Below are positions 27,450-54,792 of a DNA stretch of 64,000 bases, piece by piece. How positions within the stretch are numbered: the first letter of the stretch is position 1; each line of letters starts with the position of its first letter. Position numbers and translations under genes: made by a program. The notes under the pieces are model-generated. The model was not told where the DNA came from, made no database searches, and saw only the letters and a list, made by a program, of their open reading frames with translations. The stretch is from Paraburkholderia sp. (lineage in GTDB: Bacteria; Pseudomonadota; Gammaproteobacteria; Burkholderiales; Burkholderiaceae): positions 53,098-117,097 of the forward strand of contig NZ_JAMXLH010000058.1 of the NCBI RefSeq assembly GCF_024281035.1. The letters are read 5' to 3'.

Positions 27450-29425
<1,976 letters not shown>

Positions 29426-37455: not shown

Positions 37456-39105
37456 TTACGACGCTGAGCGTTTGAAAGACGGTGCAGGAATACCTTCGAT
37501 CATGATGTTCACGCATGCTGGCAGCTTCAAGCGCCGCGCGGCCTGCGCCTGTTCGATCGCGTCTTTCATGTCGTCTGCATGTTCGACAAACGCACCAGTT
37601 CCACCGAAAGCCTCCGTCACGCGATCATAGCGTACAGGTAGCAGTTCGCAGCCAATCAGCCGCTCTGGGCCATAACTTCGCAACTGGATCTGATACTCGG
37701 CGTTCCATCGCGCATCGTTGCCAACGACGGCCACGAAGGGTAATCCGTAGCGCACCGCGGTATCCATCTCCGCAGCATGAAATCCGAACGTCCCATCTCC
37801 CATCACGGCGACCACAGGCGAATCAGGGTGCGCTACGCGAGCCGCCAGCGCGAACGGAAGCGCGGCCCCGATCGCTCCTGCGACGCCATTGATCACGCGA
37901 TTGGGCGCCCGCAGGCAGGCTTGCGCCCACTGCCCGAATTCGCCGCCGTCCGCGACGAAAACCGCATCGGGATGGCTGTCGAGCAACGCCTGGAACGGCG
38001 CGAGCGCCTGCACAGGATGAACACGTTTTTCGAACGACGATGACGCCGTGCGCCATTGCTCGGGCCGCCATGCGATCGCTCTCTGCACATCGCGCGCCCA
38101 TCGTTCATCGAACCTGTGCACATTGCGGCAAGCGGTTGCGAGCATTTCGAGCGCAGGGAAGCTGTCTGCGACAGCGGTGCCGATCAGGCGCTCACCCACG
38201 GCGCGACGCGTCCGCGCGATTTCTTGCGGCTCCGGGTCGATCTGCAGGAAAGTGCAGCCGGGCGCGAAAGCGGGCGCTCTCCCGAATGCCAGCGTGAAAT
38301 CGAGCCGCTTGCCGAGCAGCATCACGCGGTCGGCCTGCGCGAGGACTTCGGCGAAAGCGCCGAGGCTCGGATCGTTGATGCCTCGCGGGCTCTCCATGCC
38401 AATGACCGGAACGCCAAGTGCCGCCGCAAGCGTATCTGTTCGTTTGCGTCCCGCGCGGGTCATGCACGCCGGCCCCGTGAGGATCAGCGGGCGCGACGCG
38501 TCGGCCAGGCTCGAGACCAGGCGCCTGAGCGTTGTATCGTCAAGCATTTGCCGCATCGGTAAAAAGCTCTCGGCATTGACTTCATCAGGCATGTGAGCGG
38601 AGCCTTCCAATACGTCCGTTGGAAGGCTCAGGTGTACAGGCCCGGGTCGCCCGGACTGCGCGACGCGCATCGCGTGGACGACCTCATCAACGAGGGTATG
38701 GGGATGCTGTGCCGTGGCCGCCATCTTGACCAATGGCGCGGCGACATCCGCCTGACGCATTTCCTGGAACGCACCCATGCCCAATTGATCGCGCGGACTA
38801 TGGCCCGATAGAAGCAGAACGGGCGATTCAGCCATTTGAGCGGTATACAGGGCCGAAACTGCGTTCGCGTGACCGGGACCGCCGGTCACCAACGCCACGC
38901 CGACCTGCCCTGTCAACCGCGCGTAGGCATCCGCCATATGCACGGCCGCAGCCTCATGACGCGTATGGAACAACGCAATTCCCGCGCCAATGCAAGCGTC
39001 GAACACCGGCATGATGTGGTTGCCCGACAGGGTGAAGATATGTTTCACCCCTGCCTTCGACAACGCCTTTACCAGCGCGTCAGCACCGCGGCATGCAATC
39101 GACAT
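37456..39105 (-). CDS. thiamine-diphosphate-dependent enzyme, acetolactate synthase-like
   Basis: A 549-residue three-domain TPP enzyme. The catalytic glutamate is Glu51 in FHTRHEAAAVHMADAYAR and the cofactor motif GDGTFGFH with the later GNDARWN lies near residue 445. It resembles acetolactate synthase large subunits, benzoylformate decarboxylases and 2-hydroxyacyl-CoA lyases without clearly matching one, and no regulatory small-subunit gene is near. It is divergent from tctBA, so it may act on the 2-oxo or 2-hydroxy acid derived from the imported carboxylate. GAGGAG precedes the ATG. Confidence 0.82.
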   Translation of the reverse strand: MSIACRGADALVKALSKAGVKHIFTLSGNHIMPVFDACIGAGIALFHTRHEAAAVHMADAYARLTGQVGVALVTGGPGHANAVSALYTAQMAESPVLLLSGHSPRDQLGMGAFQEMRQADVAAPLVKMAATAQHPHTLVDEVVHAMRVAQSGRPGPVHLSLPTDVLEGSAHMPDEVNAESFLPMRQMLDDTTLRRLVSSLADASRPLILTGPACMTRAGRKRTDTLAAALGVPVIGMESPRGINDPSLGAFAEVLAQADRVMLLGKRLDFTLAFGRAPAFAPGCTFLQIDPEPQEIARTRRAVGERLIGTAVADSFPALEMLATACRNVHRFDERWARDVQRAIAWRPEQWRTASSSFEKRVHPVQALAPFQALLDSHPDAVFVADGGEFGQWAQACLRAPNRVINGVAGAIGAALPFALAARVAHPDSPVVAVMGDGTFGFHAAEMDTAVRYGLPFVAVVGNDARWNAEYQIQLRSYGPERLIGCELLPVRYDRVTEAFGGTGAFVEHADDMKDAIEQAQAARRLKLPACVNIMIEGIPAPSFKRSAS

Positions 39106-39510
39106 TGCGATATCTCCTCTTCAAGACGTTTTGATTCCCGCATTTCATTGGTGTCGAGTGGATTATTCGCGCCCTCTATCGCGGTGAAAAGTCAGTATTT
39201 CTTGAAGTCAACGAAAGGATCGCTTCTTCTCGCACTCGACAATGAGCTGACACCCATGTTTTCCCTGATGGTGTTTTTAAGGCTAACACACTACATTGCA
39301 ACTCATACATATGAGTTGTATGACCGTATCAGGCAGACAACGCTTTCTGCGGACCCCGCGTCCGCACCGGAGACACAGCGGGACGCGTTACGCACTGCTG
39401 TTTTTCCTCGACCACACACGGGCCGGGCAACGCTGTCGGCTCCCGATCTCCAGATTTCATAAGCCGGGCCGCACTGCGGATATCGATTGCCCGGATGGCG
39501 GAGGTGTGCA
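39106..39510. promoter_or_regulatory. divergent promoter region between the TPP enzyme and tctB
   Basis: These 405 bp carry two outward promoters by gene layout. AT-rich stretches around 39250-39320 and the operator-like repeat at 39299-39318 stand out. The ORFs in the track here lack ribosome sites and look like chance frames. Confidence 0.5.
39299..39318. promoter_or_regulatory. operator-like inverted repeat in the divergent region
   Basis: Perfect 8-base arms CAACTCAT and ATGAGTTG with an ACAT spacer. Its symmetry, AT richness and position between divergent genes suggest a site for a GntR- or LysR-type regulator controlling both. Confidence 0.55.
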
Positions 39511-39984
39511 TTGAACCGCAGACTGGCTTTCAGCAAGGATTACTACTCTGGCGCACTGATGGTCGTGATTGGCCTGAGCGCCGCCTACGCCGGCACGACC
39601 TATGACGTTGGAACCCTGACGAACATGGGTGCGGGTTTCTTTCCCGTCGCTGTCGGCACGCTTCTGGCTTTTATCGGCATTTTGATTGCCATGTCGGCGA
39701 AAGATCTGCCCGCGCCTGCTCTCAGCACAACGGACGCGCATTCGCGCCTGCCTGACCTGCGTGGCGCCGTGTGCATTATCGCGGGCACGCTGGCCTTCAT
39801 CCTTCTCGGCAAATATGGCGGCCTGATTCCCGCTACGTTCGCGATCGTGTTCATTTCCGCGCTCGGTGACCGAACCAACACCCTGTTTCGCGCAGCCGCG
39901 TTGTCGATCGTCATGTGCGCGATCGCCCTCGTCGTTTTCTCATGGGCGCTAAAACTTCAGTTGGCGCCGTTTGCCTGGGGATAG
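39511..39984 (+). CDS. tctB: tripartite tricarboxylate transporter, small membrane subunit
   Basis: A 157-residue protein with four predicted membrane helices and the TctB pattern (YYSGALMVVIGLSAAYAG, NMGAGFFPVAVG). I start at the TTG at 39511 (MNRRLAF), which has GGAGG six bases upstream; the track start lies in the ribosome-site region. TctB forms the membrane complex with TctA, whose gene begins 8 bp later. Confidence 0.88.
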   Translation: MNRRLAFSKDYYSGALMVVIGLSAAYAGTTYDVGTLTNMGAGFFPVAVGTLLAFIGILIAMSAKDLPAPALSTTDAHSRLPDLRGAVCIIAGTLAFILLGKYGGLIPATFAIVFISALGDRTNTLFRAAALSIVMCAIALVVFSWALKLQLAPFAWG

Positions 39985-39992
39985 AGAGCAAC

Positions 39993-41552
39993 ATGATCCA
40001 ACAATCCTTGCACGACCTCTTTTACGGCTTCTCAGTTGCGCTTCAAGGCACCAACTTGATGTGGTCGTTTTTCGGTGTCCTCGTGGGCAACATGGTTGGC
40101 GTGTTGCCGGGCATGGGGGCGCTTTCGGCGATATCCATCCTGCTGCCGCTCACCTATGTCATGCACCCTGTCCCGGCAATTCTGATGCTCGCCGGCATTT
40201 TCTACGGATCGCAATACGGTGGTGCGATCGGCGCGATTCTGCTCAACCTTCCCTCTCACCCTCCCCATGCGATTACCTGCCTCGACGGGTATCCCATGGC
40301 GAAGGCAGGCCGAGGCGGCGCGGCACTCGGCATCACGATGTTGAGTTCGTTCTTCGCGGCATCGTTCGGCATCGTCCTGATGATTTTCGCTTCGCCATTG
40401 CTCACGGCGATGGCATTCAAATTCGGCCCGCCGGAAATTTTCTCGGTCATGTTGCTGGGTCTTCTCGCGGGCTCGACGATGTCGAGAGGCTCCGCGCTGA
40501 AAGGCATTGCCATGACGCTTTTCGGCCTGCTTTGCGGCATGGTTGGCACCGACGTCAATACGGGCACGTTTCGCTTCACGTTCGGCCTGACCGACATGAA
40601 CGACGGACTGGAACTGGTCGCTATCGCCATGGGGCTTTTTGGCGTCGCCGACTTTCTTTGCAACGTCAACAGAATGCAGGTATCAAACAAGTCGCTCAAC
40701 GTGCGCTTCAAGGATATGCGCCCGACGCGCGAAGAACTCAAAGCCACATTCTGGCCAATGACGCGCGGCACGGCCGTGGGTGCGCTGTTCGGCGCCATGC
40801 CGGGAACCGGCCCGACGATCACGACCTTCGTGGCCTACGCGCTTGAGCGCAAGCTCTCCAGAAATCCGCAGGCATTCGGAACGGGGGTGATTGCCGGCGT
40901 CGCGGCGCCCGAAGCGTCATCGCACTCGAAAACGCAAGTCGACTTCATCCCGACGATGAGCCTCGGCATCCCAGGCGACCCCGTCATGGCGTTAATTCTG
41001 GGCGCGCTCATTATTCAGGGCATTACACCCGGCCCACAGTTGATCTCTGAGCACCCCGATATCTTCTGGGGACTCATTGCGAGTTTCTGGATCGGGAATA
41101 TTCTGCTCGTTCTGCTGAATGTGCCGATGATAGGCGTGTGGATCAAATTGCTAAGGCTGCCGTACCGCTATCTCTTTCCTTCCGCGATGTTCTTTATTGC
41201 GGTCGGCGTGTTCAGCACCCAGAACAGCCTTTTCGAAGTGTGGCAGGTGCTCGCGTTTGGTCTCCTCGGTACCGTCTTCAATTACCTTGGTTTCTCGGTC
41301 GCGCCCATCCTGCTCGGGTTCGTCCTCGGGCCGATGATCGAAGAAAACTTTCGCCGCGCACTGCTCATTTCGCACGGGAATATATCGATTTTTATCAGTC
41401 ACCCCATCAGTTGCGGATTTCTCATCGCATCGCTATTGCTTCTGATATTCGTCACGCTGTCCGCACAACGAAACCGCCGTCGCGCGAACAAAACGGAACG
41501 CATGCACGAGGGCGGATCACGCGTCGAAATGCCGCGGACAAGCAGCGATTGA
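39993..41552 (+). CDS. tctA: tripartite tricarboxylate transporter, large membrane subunit
   Basis: A 519-residue protein with about 12 helices and the TctA signatures GVLPGMGALSAISILLPLT and GAMPGTGPTITTF, plus FYGSQYGGAIGAILLN. It is the channel-forming subunit of a sodium- or proton-driven importer that takes carboxylates from a TctC-type binding protein. AGAGAGCAAC precedes the ATG. The matching tctC is not in the usual place upstream but lies convergently 0.55 kb downstream. Confidence 0.94.
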   Translation: MIQQSLHDLFYGFSVALQGTNLMWSFFGVLVGNMVGVLPGMGALSAISILLPLTYVMHPVPAILMLAGIFYGSQYGGAIGAILLNLPSHPPHAITCLDGYPMAKAGRGGAALGITMLSSFFAASFGIVLMIFASPLLTAMAFKFGPPEIFSVMLLGLLAGSTMSRGSALKGIAMTLFGLLCGMVGTDVNTGTFRFTFGLTDMNDGLELVAIAMGLFGVADFLCNVNRMQVSNKSLNVRFKDMRPTREELKATFWPMTRGTAVGALFGAMPGTGPTITTFVAYALERKLSRNPQAFGTGVIAGVAAPEASSHSKTQVDFIPTMSLGIPGDPVMALILGALIIQGITPGPQLISEHPDIFWGLIASFWIGNILLVLLNVPMIGVWIKLLRLPYRYLFPSAMFFIAVGVFSTQNSLFEVWQVLAFGLLGTVFNYLGFSVAPILLGFVLGPMIEENFRRALLISHGNISIFISHPISCGFLIASLLLLIFVTLSAQRNRRRANKTERMHEGGSRVEMPRTSSD

Positions 41553-42107: not shown

Positions 42108-43103
42108 TCAATTCGCGCTGATATGGCTTGTGTTCACAACTTTTTGCCATTTCGCCGATTCAGTGGCAATCCTGCTCTCAAGTTGTTGAGGCGTGTCGCC
42201 CACTGCATCCATACCCAGCACGGCGAGGCGCTGGCGAGTATCGGGCTGGGCGAGAACCTTCACGGTGTCTTGCTGAATCTTCTGGATGACGTTCGCAGGC
42301 GTGCCAGCCGGCGCCACGAGTGCGAACCAGCCCGTTACATTGAATCCGGGCAGCCCGGCTTCCTCCACGGTCGGAATATCGGGCCATGCGCTTGAGCGAT
42401 GGTCACCGGTCACGGCAAGCACCTTGATCGTTTTGCCCTTCATGAACGGCAGCGCTGCCGCGATGTTGGGCAATACAACCTGTACGCGGTCCGCCATCAA
42501 ATCGTTCAGTGCAAGCACCTCGCCCTTATAGGGCACGTGAACCATGGGAATGCCCGCTGCACCCGCGAAGGCTGCATCGGCCATGTGGACCTGACTCCCG
42601 ATGCCGGCGGAACCAAAATTCAGCTTTGGATGTTGCGTTTTCCCGTATGCGATCAGCTCTTTCACATTCGAAATCGGCAGAGTCGGCGCCACCGCGACAA
42701 CCATCGGGTTGCTCGCAACCGTGGTGATATAGGTGAAGTCCTTGGCCGTGTACGGAAGTTTTTTATAAATGTACTGGTTGACGGTGAACATGCTCCCCGA
42801 TGCCAGCATCAACGTGTAACCGTCCGGCGCGGACTTCGCCTCGACCTCGGCGCCGATCATGCCGCCCGCACCGGGCCGATTGTCGATCACCACGGACTGC
42901 TTCCATAGCGTCCCCAATCCCTGGCCAATCGTGCGTGCCAGCACATCAGTCGAACCGCCCGCTGTAAAAGGTACGATGATCCGGATCGGCTGAGAAGGCC
43001 AGGCGTCTTCTGCATGAGCGACCGACTGCGCCTGAAAAACAGCGGAAAGTGCGGCAGCGAGCACGAGCCCGCGTCTGAGCGTGCGAATGATATGGGAGGG
43101 CAT
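42108..43103 (-). CDS. tctC: tripartite tricarboxylate transporter binding protein (Bug family)
   Basis: A 331-residue exported protein with signal peptide RGLVLAAALSAVFQAQSVAHAE and the Bug/TctC pattern WPSQPIRIIVPFTAGGSTDVLAR, DNRPGAGG and AAKSAPDGYTLM-like (EAKSAPDGYTLMLA). It captures a di- or tricarboxylate in the periplasm. I start at MPSHIIRTLRR (43103) with GGAGA upstream, not at the track start. It is the last gene of the minus-strand dicarboxylate operon, 110 bp after the SdhA-like gene, and the probable partner of the convergent TctBA. Betaproteobacteria often carry many orphan copies, so pairing is inferred. Confidence 0.9.
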   Translation of the reverse strand: MPSHIIRTLRRGLVLAAALSAVFQAQSVAHAEDAWPSQPIRIIVPFTAGGSTDVLARTIGQGLGTLWKQSVVIDNRPGAGGMIGAEVEAKSAPDGYTLMLASGSMFTVNQYIYKKLPYTAKDFTYITTVASNPMVVAVAPTLPISNVKELIAYGKTQHPKLNFGSAGIGSQVHMADAAFAGAAGIPMVHVPYKGEVLALNDLMADRVQVVLPNIAAALPFMKGKTIKVLAVTGDHRSSAWPDIPTVEEAGLPGFNVTGWFALVAPAGTPANVIQKIQQDTVKVLAQPDTRQRLAVLGMDAVGDTPQQLESRIATESAKWQKVVNTSHISAN

Positions 43104-43213
43104 TGCATTGTCTCCGTTTAAAATAATGTGGATCGGCACGGGCGAAATTCCAGCTCGGCAGAAATGCAGTTTTCGGAAATGCGCGTGCAATGCGGCATCC
43201 CTCATTTAGCGAT

Positions 43214-44932
43214 CTACTCGCAAAGAATCGTCTCGCCCGGCCGTACCCGGCTAAACGTTACCGGCTCCTGTTTGATCTGAACTTCTCCTTCACTTTTGCG
43301 AATCGTCGTATAAGCCGACCTCTCCAGATCGCCGGCCTCGGGAAAATCCTCGCGGAAATGGGCTCCCCGCGAATTCTCGCGGGATATTGCCGCCTCGGTG
43401 ATGATCTGGCTAACCGAAATCAGGTTTTTCAAGTTGAGCCAGTCGTGCCACTGTGCGTTGAATGCGCGCGCGCCATCCACGACACCCGTCAACATCAGGC
43501 GATCGTTGAGTTCTCCCAGGACGTTCCGCGCCCGCAAGAGTCCATCGTGGTCGCGAATGATGCCGACATGCGTCCACATGCATTTGTAGAGCGACTCCCG
43601 AATCTCTTCGAGGTCTTTTCCGCTTTTTGAAAACGGTGATTCTGCAACCTCGATTGCGCCTTCGATGGCAAACGAATCGGGTTCTCGAAACTGGCCTTCC
43701 GCTTTCACCCACCTCGCCATGTTGTCGCCGGCAATTCCGCCGAATACCGTGGAATTCGCCACGCCGTTGCCACCCAGACGATTCGCGCCGTGCACGCCAC
43801 CCGTATCTTCGCCTGCGGCGAAGAGGCCATCCAGTTCGGTGCTGCAGTCGGTGCGAAACACGACACCGCCCATCATGTAGTGCGCGGTCGGCACCACTTC
43901 GACGAGCCCGCCCGCGAGATCGAACCCGCAGTCCGCGCAACGTTCCACCATGCCCTTGAACTGCTTTCTGACCTTGTCGGGACCGAGGTGGCCCATCTGG
44001 ATGTAAACGCCGCCATTGGGCGAGGTTCGCCCCGCGCGCATTTCGGAATAAATGCCGCGCGAAACGATATCGCGCGTTGCGCGCTCGCCGCGCTTGTCGT
44101 ATTTGTCCATGAACCGCTCTTTCGAGCCATTCAATAGATGCCCGCCCGCACCACGCAGCCCTTCTTCGAGCACGGTGCCGGTCATGCGTGTGTGACTGCC
44201 GGCAAGCAGCCCCGTGGGGTGAAACTGCACCATTTCCATATCGCGAAGCGTGAGTCCCGCGCGCAGCGCCATCGCGAGTCCGTCGCAGCTTTTATCCCCG
44301 GACGGCGTATGAAACTTGTACATCGTCGGGCCGCCGCCCGTCGCTAGCAGCACCGCCCTCGCCTGCACGAACACGAACTTGCCCGTCCGCATATCGATCA
44401 TCAAGACGCCCGCAATATGCTTGCCATCGGCTGTCTTGATCAGCTCGATCGCCCTGTGCTCTTCCAGGCGATGAATACCGCGACTCCACACCTGCTCGGC
44501 TAACCGGTTGATAATCTCGATTCCGGTCAGGTCGCCCTTGTGGACCGTCCGGTCGAACGTCTGGCCCGCGAACGCTTTCTGATGAATCGATCCGTCCGGA
44601 TTACGGTCAAAAAAACAGCCAAGCTCGTTTTCAAGCTCGCGTACGCGCTCGACGGCCGTACTCACGAGCGCCCACGCGAGATCCTGGTTGGACAGCCATT
44701 TACTTCCTTCAATCGTGTCCATGAAGTGACGTTCGACCGAATCGCCGGGAGCCAGCGCGACGTTATAGCCGCCCTGTACCATGCGCGTGCAGCCACATTT
44801 CCCCAGCAGCCCTTTCACTGCAACGGTGATCGAAAGATCCGGCGCCTGCTTGTGCGCGTGAAGCGCGGCAAACAGACCGGCGCCACCCGATCCGAGAATC
44901 AGGATATCCGTCTTGACGCGCCCAATATTCAT
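43214..44932 (-). CDS. SdhA/FrdA-like flavoprotein with Cys in place of the flavin-linking His
   Basis: A 572-residue flavoprotein of the succinate dehydrogenase/fumarate reductase family: FAD-binding GSGGAGLFAALHA (14-26), MVQFHPTGL, HGANRLGGNG and the C-terminal capping region. In SdhA and FrdA the FAD is bound covalently by the His of SHTVxAQGG; here the aligned segment is GCTRMVQGG, with Cys48. FAD may be non-covalent or cysteinyl-linked. E. coli FrdA mutants lacking this His keep fumarate reduction but lose succinate oxidation, so the reaction direction or substrate may differ. The start at 44932 overlaps the fumarase beta stop (ATGA). Partners are the SdhB-like and anchor genes upstream in the operon. 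Confidence 0.87.
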   Translation of the reverse strand: MNIGRVKTDILILGSGGAGLFAALHAHKQAPDLSITVAVKGLLGKCGCTRMVQGGYNVALAPGDSVERHFMDTIEGSKWLSNQDLAWALVSTAVERVRELENELGCFFDRNPDGSIHQKAFAGQTFDRTVHKGDLTGIEIINRLAEQVWSRGIHRLEEHRAIELIKTADGKHIAGVLMIDMRTGKFVFVQARAVLLATGGGPTMYKFHTPSGDKSCDGLAMALRAGLTLRDMEMVQFHPTGLLAGSHTRMTGTVLEEGLRGAGGHLLNGSKERFMDKYDKRGERATRDIVSRGIYSEMRAGRTSPNGGVYIQMGHLGPDKVRKQFKGMVERCADCGFDLAGGLVEVVPTAHYMMGGVVFRTDCSTELDGLFAAGEDTGGVHGANRLGGNGVANSTVFGGIAGDNMARWVKAEGQFREPDSFAIEGAIEVAESPFSKSGKDLEEIRESLYKCMWTHVGIIRDHDGLLRARNVLGELNDRLMLTGVVDGARAFNAQWHDWLNLKNLISVSQIITEAAISRENSRGAHFREDFPEAGDLERSAYTTIRKSEGEVQIKQEPVTFSRVRPGETILCE

Positions 44933-45543
44933 CTTGTTTGCACTCCCATACTTTTCAGAACATCGTCGCGCCGCGAGGCTGTGTCGCTCTTGACTTCGTC
45001 GTACAGGCTGCCACCGCAACTGTCCATAGCCACTAGCAGCGGACCGAAGCCCTTGATCCTGAATTTCCATAGCGACTCGGGATTGAGGTCGTCGAGATCG
45101 ACGGCTTCGATTTTCTCGATCCAGGTCGTTTCGAGCGCAGCCGTTCCGCCGATGATCGCCAGATATGCGCCGCCCAGATCCTGAAACGCCGCCTTCGATG
45201 CTTCGCGCAAGCCGCCCTTTCCAACGATCATGCGCACGCCATACTGTTCCATCAGCGGCCGCGTGAAGCGCTCCATGCGGTCCGATGTGGTTGTGCCAAT
45301 GCAGACCGGTTGATATCCCGCCGGGAATTCGTCGCTCGGCGCGACCTTGCGCACGTTGGGCGCCGTGTGAATGACCGCGTGCCCCCGAAGGTCGAATTCC
45401 GTCGTGCGCCCCTTGTCGAACAGATGAATCTGCGTCGCATCGCGGATACCGAAAAGCGTTTGATGCAATGTCACCGTATCGTTCACCCGCAGCTTGCGGA
45501 TCTGCGACTCGTCGACAGGTGTGAAAAGGTCATAGTGAGCCAT
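44929..45543 (-). CDS. class I fumarase/L-tartrate dehydratase family, beta subunit
   Basis: A 204-residue subunit of the iron-sulfur hydro-lyase family (TtdB/FumA C-terminal type), with GHAVIHTAPNVRKV and the active-site segment TTTSDRMERFTRPLMEQYGVRMIVGKGG. With the alpha subunit it adds or removes water from a dicarboxylate such as fumarate/malate, mesaconate or tartrate. The start at MAHYDLF (45543) comes one base after the alpha stop, and its own stop overlaps the flavoprotein start, so three genes are translationally coupled. Confidence 0.9.
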   Translation of the reverse strand: MAHYDLFTPVDESQIRKLRVNDTVTLHQTLFGIRDATQIHLFDKGRTTEFDLRGHAVIHTAPNVRKVAPSDEFPAGYQPVCIGTTTSDRMERFTRPLMEQYGVRMIVGKGGLREASKAAFQDLGGAYLAIIGGTAALETTWIEKIEAVDLDDLNPESLWKFRIKGFGPLLVAMDSCGGSLYDEVKSDTASRRDDVLKSMGVQTR

Positions 45544-45544: not shown

Positions 45545-46420
45545 TCAGAATCCGTAAGTGAGACCGTCTGTGGTAAGCCGAGCCTTCGCACGTCGCGCGG
45601 AATGACATTGCATGTTGACCGCGATGGGATTCATCGTGATGTGCGTCGACGCCAGTTCGATATGCACCGCAAACGCCGTGCTATCTCCGCCTAACCCTTG
45701 CGGTCCGACGCCGAGGCGATTCACCGCCTCAGTGAGTTCGCGTTCGAGGTCGGCGCCCGCAGCGTCCGTGCAGGTGGTGCCAAGCGCGCGCGTAGCGGCA
45801 CGCTTGGCCAGCGCAATCGACAGATCGGACGTGCCGCCAAGGCCGACGCCCACGATAGTCGGCGGACAAGTCTTGCCGCCGGCGGAGATAACGCAATCGA
45901 CGACAAACATCTTGATCGCATCAATGCCCTCGGCCGGAACGGCCATCTTCAGAAATGAATTGTTCTCCGAGCCGCTTCCTTTCGGCACCATCTCGATGGT
46001 CGCGGTCTCGTTTTCGTCGGTGAAGTCGACGTGAATAACCGGAACCTCGATGCCGCACGACGTGTGGTTGTTCTTGCGTGTAAGCGGATGCACGACAGAC
46101 GAACGCAGCGGGTGCTCCCTCGTGGCGCGCTCACACCCTTTGCGGATGGCGGCCTTCAACGCAAATCCGTCGAACTCGACATTCCGGCCAAGCACAACGT
46201 TGTAAATGGGGATGCCCGTATCCTGGCAAAGCAGGTTTTCCGTATTTTCCGCCACGCGAATATTGGTCCGCATCGTCTCCAGGACCCGCTGCGCTACCGG
46301 TGACGTTTCGGTAGCCGAAAGTCTTTCAATGCCGTCTTTCACGTCGGGCGGAAGCAACTTGAGGGCGCGAATATACAGCTCTTTCGAGGCTTCCTCGACG
46401 ACGTCAAGGTCTAGTTTCAT
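45545..46420 (-). CDS. class I fumarase/L-tartrate dehydratase family, alpha subunit
   Basis: A 291-residue [4Fe-4S] subunit. The candidate cluster cysteines are Cys65 in LLCQDTGIPIY, Cys122 in TSCGIEV and Cys185 in GGKTCPPTIVGVG, with PKGSGSENNSF between them. The two-subunit arrangement is that of TtdAB and of split class I fumarases. Being encoded with SDH-like subunits and dicarboxylate transporters, fumarate hydratase is the first guess, but mesaconate or tartrate activity is not excluded. Confidence 0.9.
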   Translation of the reverse strand: MKLDLDVVEEASKELYIRALKLLPPDVKDGIERLSATETSPVAQRVLETMRTNIRVAENTENLLCQDTGIPIYNVVLGRNVEFDGFALKAAIRKGCERATREHPLRSSVVHPLTRKNNHTSCGIEVPVIHVDFTDENETATIEMVPKGSGSENNSFLKMAVPAEGIDAIKMFVVDCVISAGGKTCPPTIVGVGLGGTSDLSIALAKRAATRALGTTCTDAAGADLERELTEAVNRLGVGPQGLGGDSTAFAVHIELASTHITMNPIAVNMQCHSARRAKARLTTDGLTYGF

Positions 46421-46490: not shown

Positions 46491-46844
46491 CTAATGGATG
46501 AGCGCCAGCAGGAACGCGAGGCCCGTGCACGTGCTCGCCCCCAAACCGAAGGCGAGCCAGTTTTTTCTCAAGCCCGTCCACGGGAGGAATTCGATCAGCA
46601 AAAGACGAATGCCCCCCATCATGTGAAGCGAGAGCAGCACCACGAGTCCCCATTCGGCAAACCGGAAAAGCGGTTGGTCGGTCAAACGTAGAAAGCCATC
46701 GAGAGAAGCCTCTCCGTGAATGGCGCGCCCGAGCGCCCAGAAGTGAACCGGCAGAAACAAAGCCAGTGCGAGACCGGAAAGACGATGCACAAGAAAGGCC
46801 CACCAGGCAGGATGAGTACGGGCGCGATAGTCGTTCTTTCGCAT
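46491..46844 (-). CDS. succinate dehydrogenase/fumarate reductase-type membrane anchor (second subunit)
   Basis: A 117-residue protein with three predicted helices and the SdhC-like pattern FLVHRLSGLALALFLPVHFWALG, plus a second histidine in LSLHMMGGIRLL. Histidines in two helices could ligate haem b and the HR-SG region bind quinone. The ATG at 46844 overlaps the stop of the preceding anchor gene (TGATG). It and the next gene form a two-subunit anchor for the flavoprotein and iron-sulfur subunits. Confidence 0.82.
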   Translation of the reverse strand: MRKNDYRARTHPAWWAFLVHRLSGLALALFLPVHFWALGRAIHGEASLDGFLRLTDQPLFRFAEWGLVVLLSLHMMGGIRLLLIEFLPWTGLRKNWLAFGLGASTCTGLAFLLALIH

Positions 46845-47191
46845 CACGAGAAGACTCCATAGACAGCCCGCAGGCCCATCAGTGCGAGGGCGGCGGAAAA
46901 AGCCAGGAAAACGGCATGCGCGGACCTTCCCCGCCAGTGCAACCATTCCTCCGCGATTCTGAGTAGCCCAACAGGCACATGTATCGCGCACGCAATCACG
47001 AAGACGGCATAAAAGGCGCCAAACGGCAGATTGCCGCGCGTGCGGCCGAGAATGGCCGATGCGCTCAAGCCGCTATGGACCGCGTAGATAATGACGCCCA
47101 GATGAACGAACACGCAGAGCGCGAGCACAGTCGCGCTCACGCGCTGCCAGTACCAGAGACGAGCCTGAGTGCGAAGAGACATGGCTTGCAT
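46844..47191 (-). CDS. succinate dehydrogenase/fumarate reductase-type membrane anchor (first subunit)
   Basis: A 115-residue protein with three helices (ATVLALCVFVHLGVIIYAV, FYAVFVIACAIHVPVGLL, AVFLAFSAALALMGLRAVY). Histidines in helices one and two are candidate haem ligands, so with the next subunit up to two haems are possible (type A layout). The start MQAMSLRTQ overlaps the iron-sulfur gene stop by one base (TAATG); the longer track ORF is shadow. Confidence 0.8.
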   Translation of the reverse strand: MQAMSLRTQARLWYWQRVSATVLALCVFVHLGVIIYAVHSGLSASAILGRTRGNLPFGAFYAVFVIACAIHVPVGLLRIAEEWLHWRGRSAHAVFLAFSAALALMGLRAVYGVFS

Positions 47192-47907
47192 TACAGGCCT
47201 CCTTCGCGCGCGGCTTTTATCGTCATCCGCTTGAGGCCGGCAATACCTGCCGTCGGCGAAAGATGCTTGGGACAACGTTCGGCACACGCCCCCTGGGTGT
47301 GGCACGAGTGACAACCCGCATCGCCCGCGACCGCCCGCAGGCGTTCGAGCGTTTGCGTGTCGCGTTCGTCGTTGACGAGCGTCCATGCGCGGTTCAGCGC
47401 GGCGGGACCCAGATAGTCGGGGCGCCAGGTCACCACGTCGCATGAGGAATAACACACGCCGCAACCGATACACTCGATCCCCGCGTCGACCGCCTTGCGT
47501 TGGACGCTATCGGGACTCACCCTGGCGAAGTCATCCTGACGTGTACGGCTTCCCGAGAACTGCCCCTTTGCCTGGCTCCACTTGTCGAAGAACGGGCTCA
47601 TGTCGGTCACGAGATCCTTGATGACCGGGAGGTTCGACAGCGGGGCAATTTCCAGCTCGTTGTTCAGCGCGACTTTCGATACGTGCGTGCGACACGTCCA
47701 GCGCGCCTTGCCGTTGACGTTCATCGCACAGGATCCGCACATGCCCACGCGGCACGCGAACCGGTATGCAAGGTCGGGCTGGAGTTGCCGCTGAATGAAA
47801 GTCACGACGTCCAACACCGTCTGACTCGCGTAACGCGGTACGTCATAGGTCGTGAGCCCCTCGGTAGCGCTTCTCCAGACTTTTACTCGAAGTTTTTCGG
47901 TATCCAC
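47191..47907 (-). CDS. SdhB/FrdB-like iron-sulfur subunit
   Basis: About 238 residues with the three cluster motifs of complex II: [2Fe-2S] CRVGMCGSC with C72 (52-72), [4Fe-4S] CIGCGVCYSSC (146-156) and a third Cys set CHSCHTQGACAERCP. It relays electrons between the flavoprotein and the quinone site in the anchors. I use the GTG at 47907 (MDTEKLRVKV) because family members begin about there; GAGAGG lies just upstream. It opens the coupled run of SDH and fumarase genes, 114 bp after the symporter gene. Confidence 0.88.
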   Translation of the reverse strand: MDTEKLRVKVWRSATEGLTTYDVPRYASQTVLDVVTFIQRQLQPDLAYRFACRVGMCGSCAMNVNGKARWTCRTHVSKVALNNELEIAPLSNLPVIKDLVTDMSPFFDKWSQAKGQFSGSRTRQDDFARVSPDSVQRKAVDAGIECIGCGVCYSSCDVVTWRPDYLGPAALNRAWTLVNDERDTQTLERLRAVAGDAGCHSCHTQGACAERCPKHLSPTAGIAGLKRMTIKAAREGGL

Positions 47908-48021: not shown

Positions 48022-49296
48022 CTATGTCTCGGTGCGCACCCGCTCAAGCTTTAGTACGGTGGCCATCTGAGCGTTGTCGCGCTCTTTTTCGAGCCCCGAG
48101 ACAACGAGCGTGGCAACCGCATTCCCGATCATGTTCGTGACGGCCCGCACTTCGGAAATGAACCGGTCCACGCCGAGAATGAGCGCCGCGCCTTCAATTG
48201 GGATATGTTTGAACGCCGTGAGCGTGGCAAGCAGCGTGACGAATCCGGCGCCCGACACACCGGCCGCGCCTTTCGAGCTGATCATCGACAGCACCATCAG
48301 CGCGATCTGGTCTCCCCAGGACAGCGGCACGTTGTAGGCCTGGGCGATGAACATCGCACAGATGACCTGAGCGACACAGGTGCCGTCGAGATTGAAGGAG
48401 TAGCCCATCGGCATCACGATGCCGACAACCTGCTTCGGACACCCCATCCTTTCGAGCTTGCGGATCAATTGTGGGAATACGGATTCTGACGACGTCGTGG
48501 CGAGGACGAGAAGAATTTCCCCCTTCAAATGATTGAGTAATCGAAGCAGGCTAAAACCGCTCATGCGGCAAATGGTTCCCAGCACGACGACGAGAAAAAA
48601 GATCGTCGCCGCGTAGATCGTCACGAGCAGCATGCCGAGCGAATTCAACGCGGACAGCCCATATTTTCCGACCGCGAAGCCCATCGCCCCCAATGCGCCG
48701 AGTGGCGCGAGCTTCATGATGAAACCGACAATCTTGAACAGCACTTCCGACACCGACTCGAAGAACGTCAGGGCCGGCTGCCCCTTCTCGCCGACATAGG
48801 ACAATCCCACCGCGAACAGGCAGGCAATGACAACGATCTGAAGCATGTCGCCCGAGGCGAAGGGACTCAGGAAGCTCGAAGGAATGATGTTGAGAAGAAA
48901 CGCCGTGAGGCCGCCGCCGTGATGGATATCCGACTGATATTGCGCCAGCACATGAACGTCGACGTTGCCTGGCTGGATATTCATCCCGACACCCGGCCCG
49001 ATCAGGTTCACCATCAACATTCCGATGAGCAAGGCCAGCGTGGTCACCACCTCGAAATAGATGATGGTCTTGCCCGCGATGCGGCCCAACGTACGCATTT
49101 CGCCGATCTGCGAGGCGCCGCATACGATCGTGGTGAAGATCAACGGCGGCGTAATCATCTTGATCAGCCGGATGAACACGTCGGATAGCGGCTTCAGTGA
49201 TTGGGCGAACGCCGGAAAAAAGTGACCGGCGGCGACCCCGATCAGGATGGCAATCAGGACCTGAACATAAATGTGCTTGCAAAGGCAACGCAACAT
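48022..49296 (-). CDS. dctA: DctA-like C4-dicarboxylate:cation symporter (DAACS family)
   Basis: A 424-residue symporter with eight helices and two re-entrant loops; signatures IPMGYSFNLDGT (here MPMGYSFNLDGT), MISSKGAAGVSGAGFVTL and the N-terminal PLSDVFIRLIKMI. DctA imports succinate, fumarate and malate. GGAGACACC precedes the ATG. It is encoded with SDH-like and fumarase genes, which supports a C4-dicarboxylate as the operon substrate. A paralogue lies at 53266-54606. Confidence 0.93.
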   Translation of the reverse strand: MLRCLCKHIYVQVLIAILIGVAAGHFFPAFAQSLKPLSDVFIRLIKMITPPLIFTTIVCGASQIGEMRTLGRIAGKTIIYFEVVTTLALLIGMLMVNLIGPGVGMNIQPGNVDVHVLAQYQSDIHHGGGLTAFLLNIIPSSFLSPFASGDMLQIVVIACLFAVGLSYVGEKGQPALTFFESVSEVLFKIVGFIMKLAPLGALGAMGFAVGKYGLSALNSLGMLLVTIYAATIFFLVVVLGTICRMSGFSLLRLLNHLKGEILLVLATTSSESVFPQLIRKLERMGCPKQVVGIVMPMGYSFNLDGTCVAQVICAMFIAQAYNVPLSWGDQIALMVLSMISSKGAAGVSGAGFVTLLATLTAFKHIPIEGAALILGVDRFISEVRAVTNMIGNAVATLVVSGLEKERDNAQMATVLKLERVRTET

Positions 49297-49379: not shown

Positions 49380-50171
49380 CTAACCGAACAAAACAGGCAC
49401 TGAACGAATGATCAAGTTAGCCGCCGCGGCGATGAGTACGCTCCAGAGGAGCGTCAGGACACGCGGCGCCGAAATGACGCTGCGTAACCTCGCCCCCACG
49501 AACAACCCCATCGCGCCACAAGGCAACATAAAGCTGGCGAGCGGCAGGACAGCGGGGTTTTTATAGAGCCCGGAAGCGGTGAAGAGAATGAGCCGGGCGA
49601 CAGCCGTTGCGGTAAGCAGCGTGCTGATCGTGGCGCGTCTCTGGTCGGGATCGCGCAATCGGCCGGCCAGATAAATTGTATAGACGGGGCCGCCGGTGCC
49701 GAACACTGCAGTCAGGCATCCGCCAAAAAAACCCAACGGGAGCGCCCAGCGCCCGCCGATCTCGCGAAATTCGCCCCGGGAACTGACCCTCCAGAGCGAG
49801 TAGGTCAGCAGGCACACGCCCAGAAGGAGTTCGAGCGGTTTCTCCGGTACGGAAACCAGCACACTGACGCCCAGCAGTAGGCCAATGCACAACCATGGCC
49901 CGAGCCGTGTCAATTCCCGCATCTGAACAGACTTAAGGTTGCGCATGCCAACGAGCATTCCGGCTACGAGGTCCAGCACCAGCATCACCGGTGTCGCCGT
50001 GCGCAAAGGGACCAGTTGTGTCAGCAACGGGATGGCAACGATGGACGAACCGAAACCCGTCAGTCCGTACACCAGATACGCAATCGCCACGACGCCTCCC
50101 GCCACTGCGATCGAACTGACACCCATTCCAATCGCACAAGCAGCGATTTGCGCATTCAACCAGGCTGTCAT
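49380..50171 (-). CDS. TSUP (TauE/SafE) family membrane transporter
   Basis: A 263-residue protein with about eight helices and the TSUP repeats (LVYGLTGFGSSIVAIPLLTQL and GFFGGCLTAVFGTGGPVYTIYL). Members export sulfite, sulfoacetate or other organic anions. I start at MTAWLNAQ (50171); the track ORF runs through the promoter region. It is the first gene after the divergent LysR and heads the dicarboxylate operon, but the sulfolactate module nearby would also need a sulfite exporter. Confidence 0.87.
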   Translation of the reverse strand: MTAWLNAQIAACAIGMGVSSIAVAGGVVAIAYLVYGLTGFGSSIVAIPLLTQLVPLRTATPVMLVLDLVAGMLVGMRNLKSVQMRELTRLGPWLCIGLLLGVSVLVSVPEKPLELLLGVCLLTYSLWRVSSRGEFREIGGRWALPLGFFGGCLTAVFGTGGPVYTIYLAGRLRDPDQRRATISTLLTATAVARLILFTASGLYKNPAVLPLASFMLPCGAMGLFVGARLRSVISAPRVLTLLWSVLIAAAANLIIRSVPVLFG

Positions 50172-50305
50172 TGGGAAGGGCCTCGGTGCGACTTTCGGCG
50201 TTGTGGAGCGGTCGCGCGGCACGCCTGTTGCGCTGTCCCTGAATTTCGGCCGCACTGCCGCGTCCATTTTCGCGTGCGGCTTGATAAAGATAAACCCAAT
50301 AATGG

Positions 50306-50325
50306 TTTTCCTGACACCAGGAAAA
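50306..50325. promoter_or_regulatory. operator-like inverted repeat between TSUP and LysR genes
   Basis: Perfect 8-base arms TTTTCCTG and CAGGAAAA with an ACAC spacer, 39 bp before the LysR start and about 135 bp before the TSUP start. This is where a LysR regulator would bind to control itself and the divergent operon. Confidence 0.6.
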
Positions 50326-50363
50326 ACTTTAAGTTGCGTATCATTTCGGGTATCGAATCGATC

Positions 50364-51266
50364 ATGCCTTCTCCGCAAACGCGAGCAATGCCGTCCATTC
50401 GCACCCTCAAAATATTTCTCTGCGTCGCTCAAAGCGGAACCTTTGCCGCCGCCGGCAACAAGGTCGGCCTCACCGCTGCCGCCATCGGCCTTCAGATCCG
50501 CTCGCTCGAATGCGACCTCAACGTTCAGCTTTTTGACCGCAACGCCAGAGCCGCCGTACTCAATCCGGTTGGCCGCGCGCTCATTCCGGAGATCGAAGAA
50601 ATCGTTCGCCGGTATGAGCTTCTGGAAAACGCCGTCGGCGGCGGCGAAATGTCCGGAACGGTCGTGACAGGCGCACTCGTTTCCGCGCTGATGGGTTCAT
50701 TCGCGGATGCCTTATGGTCGATACGCCGCCAGCATCCCCGCCTCGATGTACGTCTGCTTGCGGGCCTGTCCAGCGATTTCGCGCGCCAGGTCGAAGTCGG
50801 CGAACTCGATGCGGCGGTCGTCACGCAATCGCCGCACCCGTTGTCGTCCACGCTCCTTTGGACGCCGCTCTATTCAGAGCCGATGATCCTCATCATGCCC
50901 ACCGCCCCCCACTTCGATTTACCGCCGGTACAGGATGAAATACTCCGCGATGCGCCCTTCATGCGCTTCGACCGCAGCACGTGGACCGGTCATCTCGTGC
51001 AGAACGTGCTCGATCAATGCAAGATCGAAGTCAACGAGGCCATGGAACTGAACTCCGTCGAGGCAATCATCGCGCTCGTGCGTCAGGGTTTTGGCATTTC
51101 GATTGTGCCCAAACTCGCGAACGTCGATTTCGATAACGATCGCGCGATCAGCGTCATGCCCCTCGATGGCGTCGACGTGCGGCGCCACGTTGGGCTGCTC
51201 GAACGCGTCAGGCACAGCCGCACGGCGTTCACAGACGCGATCAAAAGCTACTTTGCCGCGGTGTAA
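50364..51266 (+). CDS. LysR-family transcriptional regulator
   Basis: A 300-residue regulator with an N-terminal helix-turn-helix (about 10-68; VAQSGTFAAAGNKVGLTAAAIGLQI) and an effector-binding domain. The track ORF adds 116 shadow residues; MPSPQTRAM at 50364 gives the family length, and MPSIRTLKIF at 50388 is the alternative. It is divergent from the TSUP-dctA-sdh-fum operon, the classic LysR arrangement, and is probably its regulator. The stop lies 25 bp from that of the convergent comC-like gene. Confidence 0.9.
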   Translation: MPSPQTRAMPSIRTLKIFLCVAQSGTFAAAGNKVGLTAAAIGLQIRSLECDLNVQLFDRNARAAVLNPVGRALIPEIEEIVRRYELLENAVGGGEMSGTVVTGALVSALMGSFADALWSIRRQHPRLDVRLLAGLSSDFARQVEVGELDAAVVTQSPHPLSSTLLWTPLYSEPMILIMPTAPHFDLPPVQDEILRDAPFMRFDRSTWTGHLVQNVLDQCKIEVNEAMELNSVEAIIALVRQGFGISIVPKLANVDFDNDRAISVMPLDGVDVRRHVGLLERVRHSRTAFTDAIKSYFAAV

Positions 51267-51291: not shown

Positions 51292-52293
51292 TCATCCCGC
51301 CAGCGCTCGCAACTGATTGAGCAAGGCGTCTGGAATGTCTATGCCGTCGCGCGCCGCAGCATCCGCGAGATCGAGCCGCCGCTGTCCAGGCAATCGCACG
51401 TCGGCGTCCTGCAGCATCGCTTCGATCAACGCCTCGACCCGCGAAAGATAGACGGCGTTACCCGCTAACGCACCCGGATCGATCGCCCAGAACAGGTGGC
51501 CCACGCGCGACTTTTCGCCCTCTTCGGTCAGGAACGAACCAGCCTCGTAGCCGAAGTTCGCTCCGGCCAGCGCCGCCGCCAGCAATTCGACCATCAGTGC
51601 GAGCATCGCCCCTTTAGCCCCGCCAAACGGCAGCATCATGCCTTCGAGCGCGGCCTTCGCATCGGTCGTCGGCCTGCCGTCGCGCGATGTCGCCCACCCC
51701 TCGGGAATCGGCTTGCCTTCACGAGCCGCCACCATGATCTTGCCGCGCGCGACGTTCGACAACGACAGGTCGATCATCAGCGGCTTGCCGTCGCGGCGCG
51801 GAAACACGGCCGCCACAGGATTGGTGCCGAAGACGGGATGCCGGCCACCCCACGCTGGCATCGCAGCGGGCGTATTGCTGAACGCGAGCCCCACCATTGC
51901 GGCCGCACCAACCGGCTCCAGATGCCAGGCGCCCGCGCCGAGGTGATGGCTGCGCTTCACGCTGACGACCGCGCTGCCGTGTTCGCGCGCGCGCTTCACG
52001 AGCGTCTCGATGGCGAGTTCGCAGGCGGGATACGCCATGCCGTCTCCCGCATCGATCAGGACGGCCGCGTTGCGCGACTCGACGATCACCGGTTTGGCCT
52101 TCGCATCGACACGGCCGTTGCGCAACTGCGCGATATACATCGGCAAGCGCGCGACACCGTGCGAAGACAAGCCGCGTTCGTCGGCATAGACGAGTGCGCG
52201 CGCAGTCGCCGCCGCCGTGTGCGACGTGGCGCCCGCGGCCAGCATCGTGCGTGTGGCGAGATCGTAAAGATCGCCGGACGAAATCCGCGTCAT
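51292..52293 (-). CDS. Ldh/YiaK-family 2-hydroxyacid dehydrogenase, ComC-like sulfolactate dehydrogenase
   Basis: A 333-residue NAD(P)-dependent oxidoreductase of the malate/L-lactate/sulfolactate dehydrogenase family (RGLSSHGVARLPMY, SHHLGAGAWH, NPVAAVFPRR, PFGGAKGAML). In known sulfolactate degraders ComC ((R)-specific) together with SlcC ((S)-specific) interconverts the enantiomers through sulfopyruvate. The start MTRISSGD (52293) overlaps the stop of the slcC-like gene. With SuyAB-like genes upstream a sulfolactate role is likely, though malate- or ureidoglycolate-type substrates are possible for the family. Confidence 0.85.
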   Translation of the reverse strand: MTRISSGDLYDLATRTMLAAGATSHTAAATARALVYADERGLSSHGVARLPMYIAQLRNGRVDAKAKPVIVESRNAAVLIDAGDGMAYPACELAIETLVKRAREHGSAVVSVKRSHHLGAGAWHLEPVGAAAMVGLAFSNTPAAMPAWGGRHPVFGTNPVAAVFPRRDGKPLMIDLSLSNVARGKIMVAAREGKPIPEGWATSRDGRPTTDAKAALEGMMLPFGGAKGAMLALMVELLAAALAGANFGYEAGSFLTEEGEKSRVGHLFWAIDPGALAGNAVYLSRVEALIEAMLQDADVRLPGQRRLDLADAAARDGIDIPDALLNQLRALAG

Positions 52294-52294
52294 G

Positions 52295-53269
52295 TCAAAG
52301 TTGCCTCGTTGTCGTTGAGTCATGCTCGCCCGCGAGCAGCGCATCCATCACGCGCGACGCGACCAGCGTGCTGACGCGTTCGTTCGATTGCACGGTCAAG
52401 CCCGCTATATGCGGCGTGAGAATCAGGTTCGGCACGCCCGCAAGCGGCGAACCCGCTTTGAGCGGTTCGTCGGCGAACACATCGAGCGCGGCGCCGCCAA
52501 CGCGGCCCTGTTTCAGCGCATCGGCCAGTGCGCTTTCGTCGATCACGCCGCCTCGTGACGTATTGATCACGACGGCGTGCGGTTTGAGCAGCTTCAGTTG
52601 CGCCGGGCCCAGCAGATTGCGCGTGCTCTCGACGAGCGGCACGTGAACGGTCATGACGTCCGCCGCGCGCAGCGCGTCGTCGAACGACATGCCCCGTGCA
52701 CCCGTCTCCTGCCAGCAGTCCGCATCCGCGGGAATCTGCGGATCGTAGCCCACGATCTGCATGCCGATGCCGTGCGCGCGCTGCGCGACGAGCCGCCCGA
52801 TGCCGCCGAAGCCGATCACGGCCATCGTGCCGCCCGCCGCCTCGCGCCCGTTCGAGAGCGCCGTGCGCGGCCACTGCCCCTGCGCGACAGCCGCACTCGA
52901 CAGATAGGCGCCGCGCAGCAACATCAGCGACGTGGCAATCACATACTCGGCCACGGCCGCCGCGTTTGCGCCCGTTGCCGGAAACACCTGCACGCCGCGA
53001 TCCCTGCATGCGCCGAGCGCGATATTGTCCAGCCCGACACCGAGCCGCCCGACCACCGACAAACGCGGCGCGCCGTCCAGCAACGCAGCGGTGACCTGCG
53101 TGCGGTTGCGCACGATCAGCGCGTCGGCATCGGCCAGCAGTTCGTGCAGCCGGTCGGGTTCATCGACGAGCGACGCGTGCGCGTGCACGTCGAAATGACG
53201 CCGCAGGGAATCCACTGCCGCCGCGTCCATGAACTCGCTGATGACGATCTTCTTGCGGGCGGTTTTCAA
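52295..53269 (-). CDS. D-isomer-specific 2-hydroxyacid dehydrogenase, SlcC-like
   Basis: A 324-residue SerA-type dehydrogenase: Rossmann motif GFGGIGRL (153-160), catalytic arginine in NTSRGGVID and histidine in LTPHIAGLT. The start is a TTG that overlaps the stop of the transporter gene (ATTGA), with AGGA upstream, so translation is coupled. In Chromohalobacter-type sulfolactate catabolism SlcC oxidises (S)-sulfolactate to sulfopyruvate, and ComC, encoded next here too, reduces it to the (R) form for SuyAB. Confidence 0.86.
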   Translation of the reverse strand: MKTARKKIVISEFMDAAAVDSLRRHFDVHAHASLVDEPDRLHELLADADALIVRNRTQVTAALLDGAPRLSVVGRLGVGLDNIALGACRDRGVQVFPATGANAAAVAEYVIATSLMLLRGAYLSSAAVAQGQWPRTALSNGREAAGGTMAVIGFGGIGRLVAQRAHGIGMQIVGYDPQIPADADCWQETGARGMSFDDALRAADVMTVHVPLVESTRNLLGPAQLKLLKPHAVVINTSRGGVIDESALADALKQGRVGGAALDVFADEPLKAGSPLAGVPNLILTPHIAGLTVQSNERVSTLVASRVMDALLAGEHDSTTTRQL

Positions 53270-54606
53270 TTCGGGCGTTCCTGTGCGTAAGCGGGCGGCG
53301 TTCTTGCATCGACGCTATCGACCGGTTCGGACATCGCATCGTTCACGGCACGACGATCGCGCGGCGCGGCCAGCACCTTGCGCGCCGCCTCGGCGTCGAA
53401 CGCACCTTCCCAGCGTGCGACGACGATCGTCGCCACGGCATTGCCGATCATGTTCACGATCGCGCGAACCTCGTTGAGCACGCGGTCGATGCCGATAATC
53501 AGCGTGATGCCCGCAACAGGAATGATGTTGTGCGTGGAGAGCGTGGCCGTGAGTGCGACCAGCGCCGCGCCCGCTACGCCCGCGCCGCCCTTCGATGTGA
53601 GCAGGAGAACCGCGAGCAGGCCGAGTTGTTGCAGCAAAGACAGATGCGTATTCGTGGCCTGCGCGATGAAGAGCGAAGTCATCGTGAGATAGATGGCCGC
53701 GCCGTCGAGATTGAACGAATAGCCGGTCGGCAGCACGAGACCGACGACGGGCTTCGGGCAGCCGAGGCGTTCGAGCTTGTCCATCAGGCGCGGCAGCACC
53801 GATTCCGTGGTCGACGTGCCGAGCACGATAAGCAGCTCCTCGCGCAGATATCTGAGCAGCGGCCACAGGCCGACACCGGCCCAGCGGCTGATCGTGCCGA
53901 GCACGAGGACGATGAACAGGATGCTGGTGAGGTAGAAACACACGATCAGCAAGCCGAGTTGCTGCAGTGTGCCGATGCCGTACTTGCCGACCGTGAACGC
54001 CATCGCACCGAATGCACCGAGCGGCGCAAGCCGCATGATCATCTCGACGATGCGCATGAGCGCCTCGCCGCTCTGCTCGATGACGCGCGACAGGAAGCGG
54101 CTGCGGCGAGACATGATCGACAAGGCCACGCCGAACAACACCGAAAACAGCAGCACCTGCAGCAGGTTGCCGTGCGCGAACGCACCGACCACCGAGTTCG
54201 GCACGATTTCTTCAAGGAAACTTTGCGACGCCGCCACATGCGCTTCGCTCACGTAGTGGCTGACGGCCTGCGTATCGAGCGTGGCCGGATCGATATTGAG
54301 CCCGTCGCCCGGACGCAGCACGTTCGCCACGACCAGACCGATCACGAGCGCGAGCGTCGTCACGGCTTCGAAATAGACGAGCGTTTTGACGCCCACGCGC
54401 CCGACATGCTTGAGACTTTCCATCCGTGCGATTCCCAGCGACACGGTGCAGAAAATCACCAGCGTAATGAGCATTTTGATCAGGCGAATGAACGTGTCGC
54501 CCAATGGTTTCATTTCCACGCCGAAGTGCGGCCAGAAATAACCAACGAAGATACCGGCCGCAAGTCCGATCAGGACCTGGGCATAAAGATGTCTGAGCAC
54601 GCGCAA
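53266..54606 (-). CDS. DctA-like symporter of the sulfolactate module (DAACS family)
   Basis: A 446-residue paralogue of the DctA at 48022 (LPTGYSFNLDGAAIYL, LLTSKGGAGVAGAALVAL). Its leader matches that of the paralogue (GGAGACACCAT-TTGCG), but the ATG there is ATC here, so I place the start at the next codon, TTG at 54606, behind GGAGGAGACACC. The track ORF adds 52 shadow residues. It probably imports the substrate of the adjacent dehydrogenases and lyase, a C3 sulfonate or a C4-dicarboxylate analogue. The C-terminus is longer than usual and polar. Confidence 0.88.
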   Translation of the reverse strand: MRVLRHLYAQVLIGLAAGIFVGYFWPHFGVEMKPLGDTFIRLIKMLITLVIFCTVSLGIARMESLKHVGRVGVKTLVYFEAVTTLALVIGLVVANVLRPGDGLNIDPATLDTQAVSHYVSEAHVAASQSFLEEIVPNSVVGAFAHGNLLQVLLFSVLFGVALSIMSRRSRFLSRVIEQSGEALMRIVEMIMRLAPLGAFGAMAFTVGKYGIGTLQQLGLLIVCFYLTSILFIVLVLGTISRWAGVGLWPLLRYLREELLIVLGTSTTESVLPRLMDKLERLGCPKPVVGLVLPTGYSFNLDGAAIYLTMTSLFIAQATNTHLSLLQQLGLLAVLLLTSKGGAGVAGAALVALTATLSTHNIIPVAGITLIIGIDRVLNEVRAIVNMIGNAVATIVVARWEGAFDAEAARKVLAAPRDRRAVNDAMSEPVDSVDARTPPAYAQERPN

Positions 54607-54792
54607 GATGGTGTCTCCTCCACTCGCTGCTGCCTGATGAGACAGCTTCGTGCTCCGCGGCGCGGTCTTCCTGGGCGCTGGTCTTGCGACCACGCCTGCA
54701 TGGCCTTTTGCGCAGCGGTGCGCGAAGCTGTAGCGAAACTGCGTTCGCAAAGCCCGCTGCACGAGCGGGCTTCCGGGGTAATACCTGCGCGA

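Follow-up and report, generated by a model that had tools for sequence, protein, structure and literature searches.

We analysed a window of 64,000 nucleotides (the whole stretch of DNA examined) from Paraburkholderia sp., contig NZ_JAMXLH010000058.1. Its minus strand carries an open reading frame (43214-44932) whose 572-amino-acid product is a flavoprotein of the complex II type. The features around it are as follows.

37456-39105, minus strand: thiamine diphosphate (ThDP)-dependent enzyme, a recurrent neighbour
39487-41552, plus strand: TctB-TctA tripartite tricarboxylate transporter permease genes
42108-43205, minus strand: TctC-type solute-binding protein (real start probably inside)
43214-44932, minus strand: SdhA-like flavoprotein with Cys48, proposed 3-sulfopropionate dehydrogenase subunit (from the open reading frame, Pfam and alignments)
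44786-44794, minus strand: codons of G47-C48-T49, in or beside the histidyl-FAD position (Cys48 codon, 44789-44791)
44929-45543, minus strand: fumarase class I/TtdB-type beta subunit, proposed sulfoacrylate hydratase
45545-46420, minus strand: fumarase class I/TtdA-type alpha subunit, proposed sulfoacrylate hydratase
46491-46844, minus strand: SdhC-type cytochrome b membrane anchor, two His invariant in relatives
46844-47191, minus strand: second membrane anchor, SdhD-type, two His invariant in relatives
47191-47907, minus strand: SdhB-type iron-sulfur subunit
48022-49296, minus strand: DctA-type symporter, candidate substrate importer
49380-50432, minus strand: TauE/SafE-type transporter, candidate sulfite exporter (real start inside the longest open reading frame)
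50364-51266, plus strand: LysR regulator, frequently divergent from the operon
51292-52344, minus strand: Ldh_2 family dehydrogenase, ComC-like (best curated match L-sulfolactate dehydrogenase, under the cut-off)
52295-53269, minus strand: 2-hydroxyacid dehydrogenase, SlcC-like by context
53266-54762, minus strand: second DctA-type symporter
54793-55968, minus strand: SuyB, (R)-sulfolactate sulfo-lyase large subunit
56076-56426, minus strand: SuyA, sulfolactate sulfo-lyase small subunit, SAF domain
56594-57379, plus strand: GntR/UTRA regulator, divergent from suyAB

On the minus strand the genes run dctA, sdhB, two anchors, fumarase alpha, fumarase beta, sdhA-like and tctC, with an operon order of sdhB-C-D-fumA-fumB-sdhA in which the fumarase beta stop codon overlaps the sdhA-like start. 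Profile matches to these neighbours confirmed, in make-up and in position, the complete complex II with two anchors given in a preliminary description of this DNA. The genome also has an ordinary sdhCDAB elsewhere (order sdhC-sdhD-sdhA-sdhB, flavin motif SHTVAAQGG), which sets the present complex apart from ordinary succinate dehydrogenase, and an ordinary NadB. The fumarase-like subunits retain the Cys-Gln-Asp, Arg, His, Thr-Thr-Ser-x-Arg and Lys motifs of two-subunit class I fumarase/L-tartrate dehydratase (7XKY), but the beta-subunit RDxAH is RDATQ here; RDATQ is largely conserved in the family and is a possible sign of a changed substrate. The two invariant His in each anchor (46491-47191) are enough for two haems, and the SdhB-like protein (47191-47907) has an additional Cys directly before its 3Fe-4S Cys motif, 96% conserved among relatives.

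The flavoprotein has both SdhA/FrdA domains (Pfam FAD_binding_2 and Succ_DH_flav_C), and together with SdhB and the membrane anchors this places the complex in the complex II (SQR/QFR) superfamily. The nearest PDB match to its AlphaFold model was Escherichia coli FrdA (TM ~0.8), with other complex II flavoproteins likewise similar. Compared with SdhA/FrdA (E. coli 1NEK and 1KF6), the fold, the subunits (A, B and two anchors), the catalytic His/Arg/Glu and the Fe-S ligands are common to both, but identity is only ~30 to 35%. In a maximum-likelihood tree, the 18 Cys48-type members tested formed a single clade (support, 100/100) outside the SdhA/FrdA clade; the SdhA, FrdA and SHSC types clustered separately from it (99/98), and NadB also stood apart. 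A sharp gap in identity was found in a plasmid collection, where family members were at least 46.6% identical and all other matches reached 35.6% at most. The top-scoring NCBIfam model was that of the thiol:fumarate reductase TfrA (NF004900), at 518 bits against a cut-off of 718; TfrAB is a soluble, two-subunit enzyme, whereas the flavoprotein here has SdhB and two membrane anchors as partners. Matches to NF004900 in Pseudomonadota fell mostly into the separate SHSC clade, in which the His is retained, and were set aside. L-Aspartate oxidase (NadB) is a homologous flavoprotein that likewise has no flavin His, and its FAD is non-covalent (PMC9557727); however, NadB is soluble and single-subunit, has GST/GAS in place of GCT and Thr/Ser in place of Glu256, and the flavoprotein did not group with it in the tree and scored under the nadB cut-offs.

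Conservation was assessed in 119 distinct relatives with at least 45% identity to the flavoprotein, Rhodococcus and haloarchaea included. Matches in tblastn whole-genome surveys were taken without selection for Cys; a scan of contigs for homologues used a GCT-type motif as one of its two search patterns and is therefore a biased sample. Two further homologues, from viral contigs, were added to the alignment.

The flavin loop reads KGLLGKCGCTRMVQGG, with the motif K40-GLLGKCGCTRMVQGG. Translation and alignments agree with the preliminary description that GCTRMVQGG occupies the site of the canonical SHTVxAQGG. Its placement of Cys48 at the covalent-flavin His position was confirmed to within one residue: the His is indeed missing, and Cys48 takes its place or adjoins it. 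Counting back from the common (Q/E)GG and Thr puts Cys48 on the histidyl-FAD His, as did phmmer and one MAFFT alignment. Compared with SdhA/FrdA the loop has one extra residue, and a second MAFFT run set the His over Gly47 with Cys48 as an insertion, so Cys48 is best described as at or next to the His position. Both AlphaFold models had pLDDT below 50 across the flavin loop (residues 42 to 55), with no ligand modelled. In place of the SHT whose His carries 8-alpha-histidyl-FAD in SdhA/FrdA, the flavoprotein has GCT, without a His ahead of the motif Thr, and Gly47, Cys48 and Thr49 are invariant in all 119 relatives. No other conserved His was found in the motif among these relatives that could take over the role. 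Since Cys48 is invariant while the second motif Cys, C46, can be replaced by Ser or Thr, Cys48 is not there by chance.

Six residues that by alignment to E. coli FrdA bind or reduce the dicarboxylate (H238, E257, R260, R287, H351 and R385) are each invariant (119/119), and E257, thus retained, corresponds to the proton-shuttle Glu. The change at A262 concerns the other Glu of RGEGG, which is Ala, Ser or Val in 118 of the 119. The FrdA Thr that contacts the far carboxylate, an assignment we take from the FrdA and flavocytochrome c structures, is replaced by Glu256 in all relatives, and the H238-E256 loop is longer than in SdhA/FrdA and has an invariant basic residue, R/K249. The catalytic residues are thus kept, and one end of the pocket is rebuilt. 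R249 might contact a sulfonate, which is a guess; a Glu in place of a carboxylate-binding Thr would be unexpected for sulfonate binding.

The genes suyA and suyB and those of the SlcC-like, ComC-like and TauE-type proteins all lie on one strand of the window with the flavoprotein gene, the sulfolactate set ~10 kb from it. The SuyB protein is of the UxaA type and 85% identical to the Cupriavidus pinatubonensis homologue, which adjoins hpsN/hpsO; the C. pinatubonensis hpsRNOUP-suyAB cluster belongs to a dihydroxypropanesulfonate route through sulfolactate (PMC11382572). The genome has no gene above the TIGR03457 cut-off for the sulfoacetaldehyde acetyltransferase Xsc (best, 316 against 676 bits). 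Relative to sulfolactate degradation as described in the literature covered (SlcC/ComC, SuyAB and a TauE-type exporter), the lower-pathway genes are all in the window, and the complex II and hydratase feeder module is extra. At 24012-33646, denitrification genes were recognised by sequence reading (nosZ-like, norB-like, norE/cytochrome-oxidase-III-like, norQ-like and norD-like).

These sulfolactate genes shift the reading from fumarate reductase to sulfonate breakdown. The preliminary description had offered a fumarate reductase, or action on another dicarboxylate. With SuyAB, sulfolactate dehydrogenase-like proteins, TauE, a fumarase-like hydratase and uptake systems as neighbours, fumarate reduction is probably not the function, and methylsuccinate and tartrate readings were dropped for the same reason; action on another acid fits best.

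Co-inheritance points the same way. Among 200 Burkholderiales genomes, SuyB was present in 28/28 flavoprotein carriers and 8/172 non-carriers (Fisher p = 2.5e-27), and by genus in 17/17 and 4/92 (p = 1.8e-16), p-values that are overstated because related species are not independent. Both genes lay within 20 kb of each other in 21 of the 28 carriers. The flavoprotein never occurred there without SuyB, and SuyB sometimes occurred without the flavoprotein, which fits a feeder upstream of SuyAB. In 37 loci with ~10 kb on each side, sdhB, fumA and fumB were each found in 36, SuyB in 27, a ComC-like gene in 25 and the ThDP enzyme in 17. Clustering of neighbours around homologues returned the UxaA-type pair, Ldh_2 and 2-hydroxyacid dehydrogenases, TauE-type transporters, TctC proteins and the ThDP enzyme. 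Strict co-inheritance with SuyB, the invariant Thr-to-Glu change in the pocket and the ordinary sdhCDAB in the genome all count against a fumarate reductase or second succinate dehydrogenase with non-covalent FAD recruited for general C4-acid metabolism. We regard that explanation as very unlikely, even with fumarase-like and DctA genes adjoining the operon and with non-covalent-FAD homologues known to reduce fumarate (PMC9557727).

The flavoprotein probably belongs to a four-subunit, membrane-bound, quinone-linked 3-sulfopropionate dehydrogenase. We infer the substrate, direction, stereochemistry and quinone coupling of this complex as follows. In 3-sulfopropionate (-O3S-CH2-CH2-COO-) a sulfonate stands where succinate has one of its carboxylates. 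The flavoprotein would desaturate this acid to 3-sulfoacrylate, and quinone would receive the electrons by way of the SdhB-type iron-sulfur clusters and both anchors. Water would then be added by the two-subunit fumarase-like enzyme, whose genes are co-transcribed, to give 3-sulfolactate. Replacing CH2-COO- by CH2-SO3- swaps two R/S priorities, so that, if fumarase stereochemistry is kept, the L product would be (2R)-sulfolactate, the enantiomer used by SuyAB. The ComC/SlcC-like dehydrogenases would interconvert the sulfolactate enantiomers, SuyAB would cleave sulfolactate to pyruvate and sulfite, and the TauE-type exporter would carry sulfite out. The whole route would copy succinate-fumarate-malate with one carboxylate as a sulfonate.

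The sulfonate context is equally strong for a different sulfonated acid, e.g., sulfosuccinate, whose product would then be shortened to sulfolactate or sulfopyruvate, possibly by the ThDP enzyme, which has no place in the simple route and yet occurs in 17 of the 37 loci. Its nearest NCBIfam models are 2-hydroxyacyl-CoA lyase and acetolactate synthase, all far under the cut-off. We consider such a substrate unlikely, because the ThDP enzyme is missing from the majority of the full-length loci, which still have Sdh, Fum and usually SuyAB, and because desaturation and hydration of 3-sulfopropionate would reach the SuyAB substrate directly, with no additional step.

The flavin bears on the direction of the 3-sulfopropionate reaction. 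Flavin potentials lie at about -50 to -90 mV where complex II has covalent FAD and ~90 to 150 mV lower in engineered non-covalent forms; homologues whose FAD is naturally non-covalent reduce fumarate only and cannot oxidise succinate, for which covalent flavin is considered to be required (PMC9557727). Loss of histidyl-FAD, by lowering the potential, would thus favour a sulfoacrylate reductase that converts sulfolactate to 3-sulfopropionate as an electron sink (PMC9557727); we judge this highly improbable, since the neighbours form a mineralising set (uptake, desulfonation and sulfite export) and several carriers come from genera that are normally cultured with oxygen. To act oxidatively in the absence of histidyl-FAD, the enzyme would need a raised flavin potential from another source, unless 3-sulfopropionate is easier to oxidise than succinate. 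A cysteinyl-FAD bond at Cys48 would be one device for raising the potential. Strict conservation of Cys48 is what 8-alpha-S-cysteinyl FAD, as raised in the preliminary description, predicts. The one-residue indel and the uncertain loop geometry speak against taking it for granted, as do the E. coli FrdA His44 mutants, Cys among them, in which FAD is non-covalent. Thioether (cysteinyl) FAD is not known from any other complex II family member. A 3-sulfopropionate-oxidising complex II with 8-alpha-S-cysteinyl FAD at Cys48, its thioether giving a high flavin potential, is a tentative and rather improbable proposal.

A thesis, as cited in PMC11489063, proposed the sequence 3-sulfopropionate, sulfoacrylate, sulfolactate for Roseovarius nubinhibens, and according to PMC11489063 (2024) no 3-sulfopropionate degradation had been published beyond that thesis. 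In the open-access papers covered, we found no enzyme described for 3-sulfopropionate oxidation, for sulfoacrylate or for SDH-like sulfonate use. Gut bacteria make 3-sulfopropionate from sulfoquinovose and dihydroxypropanesulfonate, soil bacteria make it from homotaurine, and Bilophila wadsworthia respires it to H2S (PMC11489063, PMC12890257). In homotaurine use, homologues of 4-aminobutyrate-pathway enzymes make it from 3-sulfopropionaldehyde (PMC11489063). During growth of Paracoccus wurundjeri on sulfofucose, proteomics showed a rise in a "fumarate and tartrate" cluster that includes a TauE homologue; the authors connected it with the Krebs cycle (PMC12421959). An operon that we found in Paracoccus matches that cluster in make-up, and the two may be the same Cys48 flavoprotein operon. 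If true, a gene set for 3-sulfopropionate breakdown would fill a step in the sulfur cycle, correct annotations such as "FAD-binding protein" and "fumarate hydratase," present a complex II running a sulfonate version of succinate-fumarate-malate and offer a natural test of histidyl-FAD substitutes in an oxidising complex II.

The link between the flavoprotein and SuyAB recurs in Rhodococcus (pRHL1), haloarchaea and Methylobacterium. In haloarchaea the flavoprotein still accompanies SuyAB and TauE; the cluster there has an ArgH-family lyase (fumarase/aspartase superfamily) in place of the two-subunit hydratase, and SdhB without adjoining anchors. The hydratase of Paracoccus, Sulfitobacter, Pseudorhizobium and Pseudomonas belongs to a distant type (26 to 38% identity). 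Hydro-lyases of varied origin beside the flavoprotein and sulfolactate lyase are what a desaturation-hydration pathway predicts. SuyB was not found within the stretch seen of some clusters (Sulfitobacter, Pseudorhizobium and Pseudomonas MPC6). The Pseudorhizobium NT-26 cluster has an additional succinate-semialdehyde dehydrogenase homologue, the enzyme type that would be expected to form 3-sulfopropionate from its aldehyde, and the Pseudomonas MPC6 cluster has an additional sulfite oxidase. In Sulfitobacter sp. THAF37, an annotated 3-sulfinopropanoyl-CoA desulfinase (locus L157, 24496-25668) lies ~11 kb from the operon and hints at a link to 3-sulfinopropionate/3-sulfopropionate supply.
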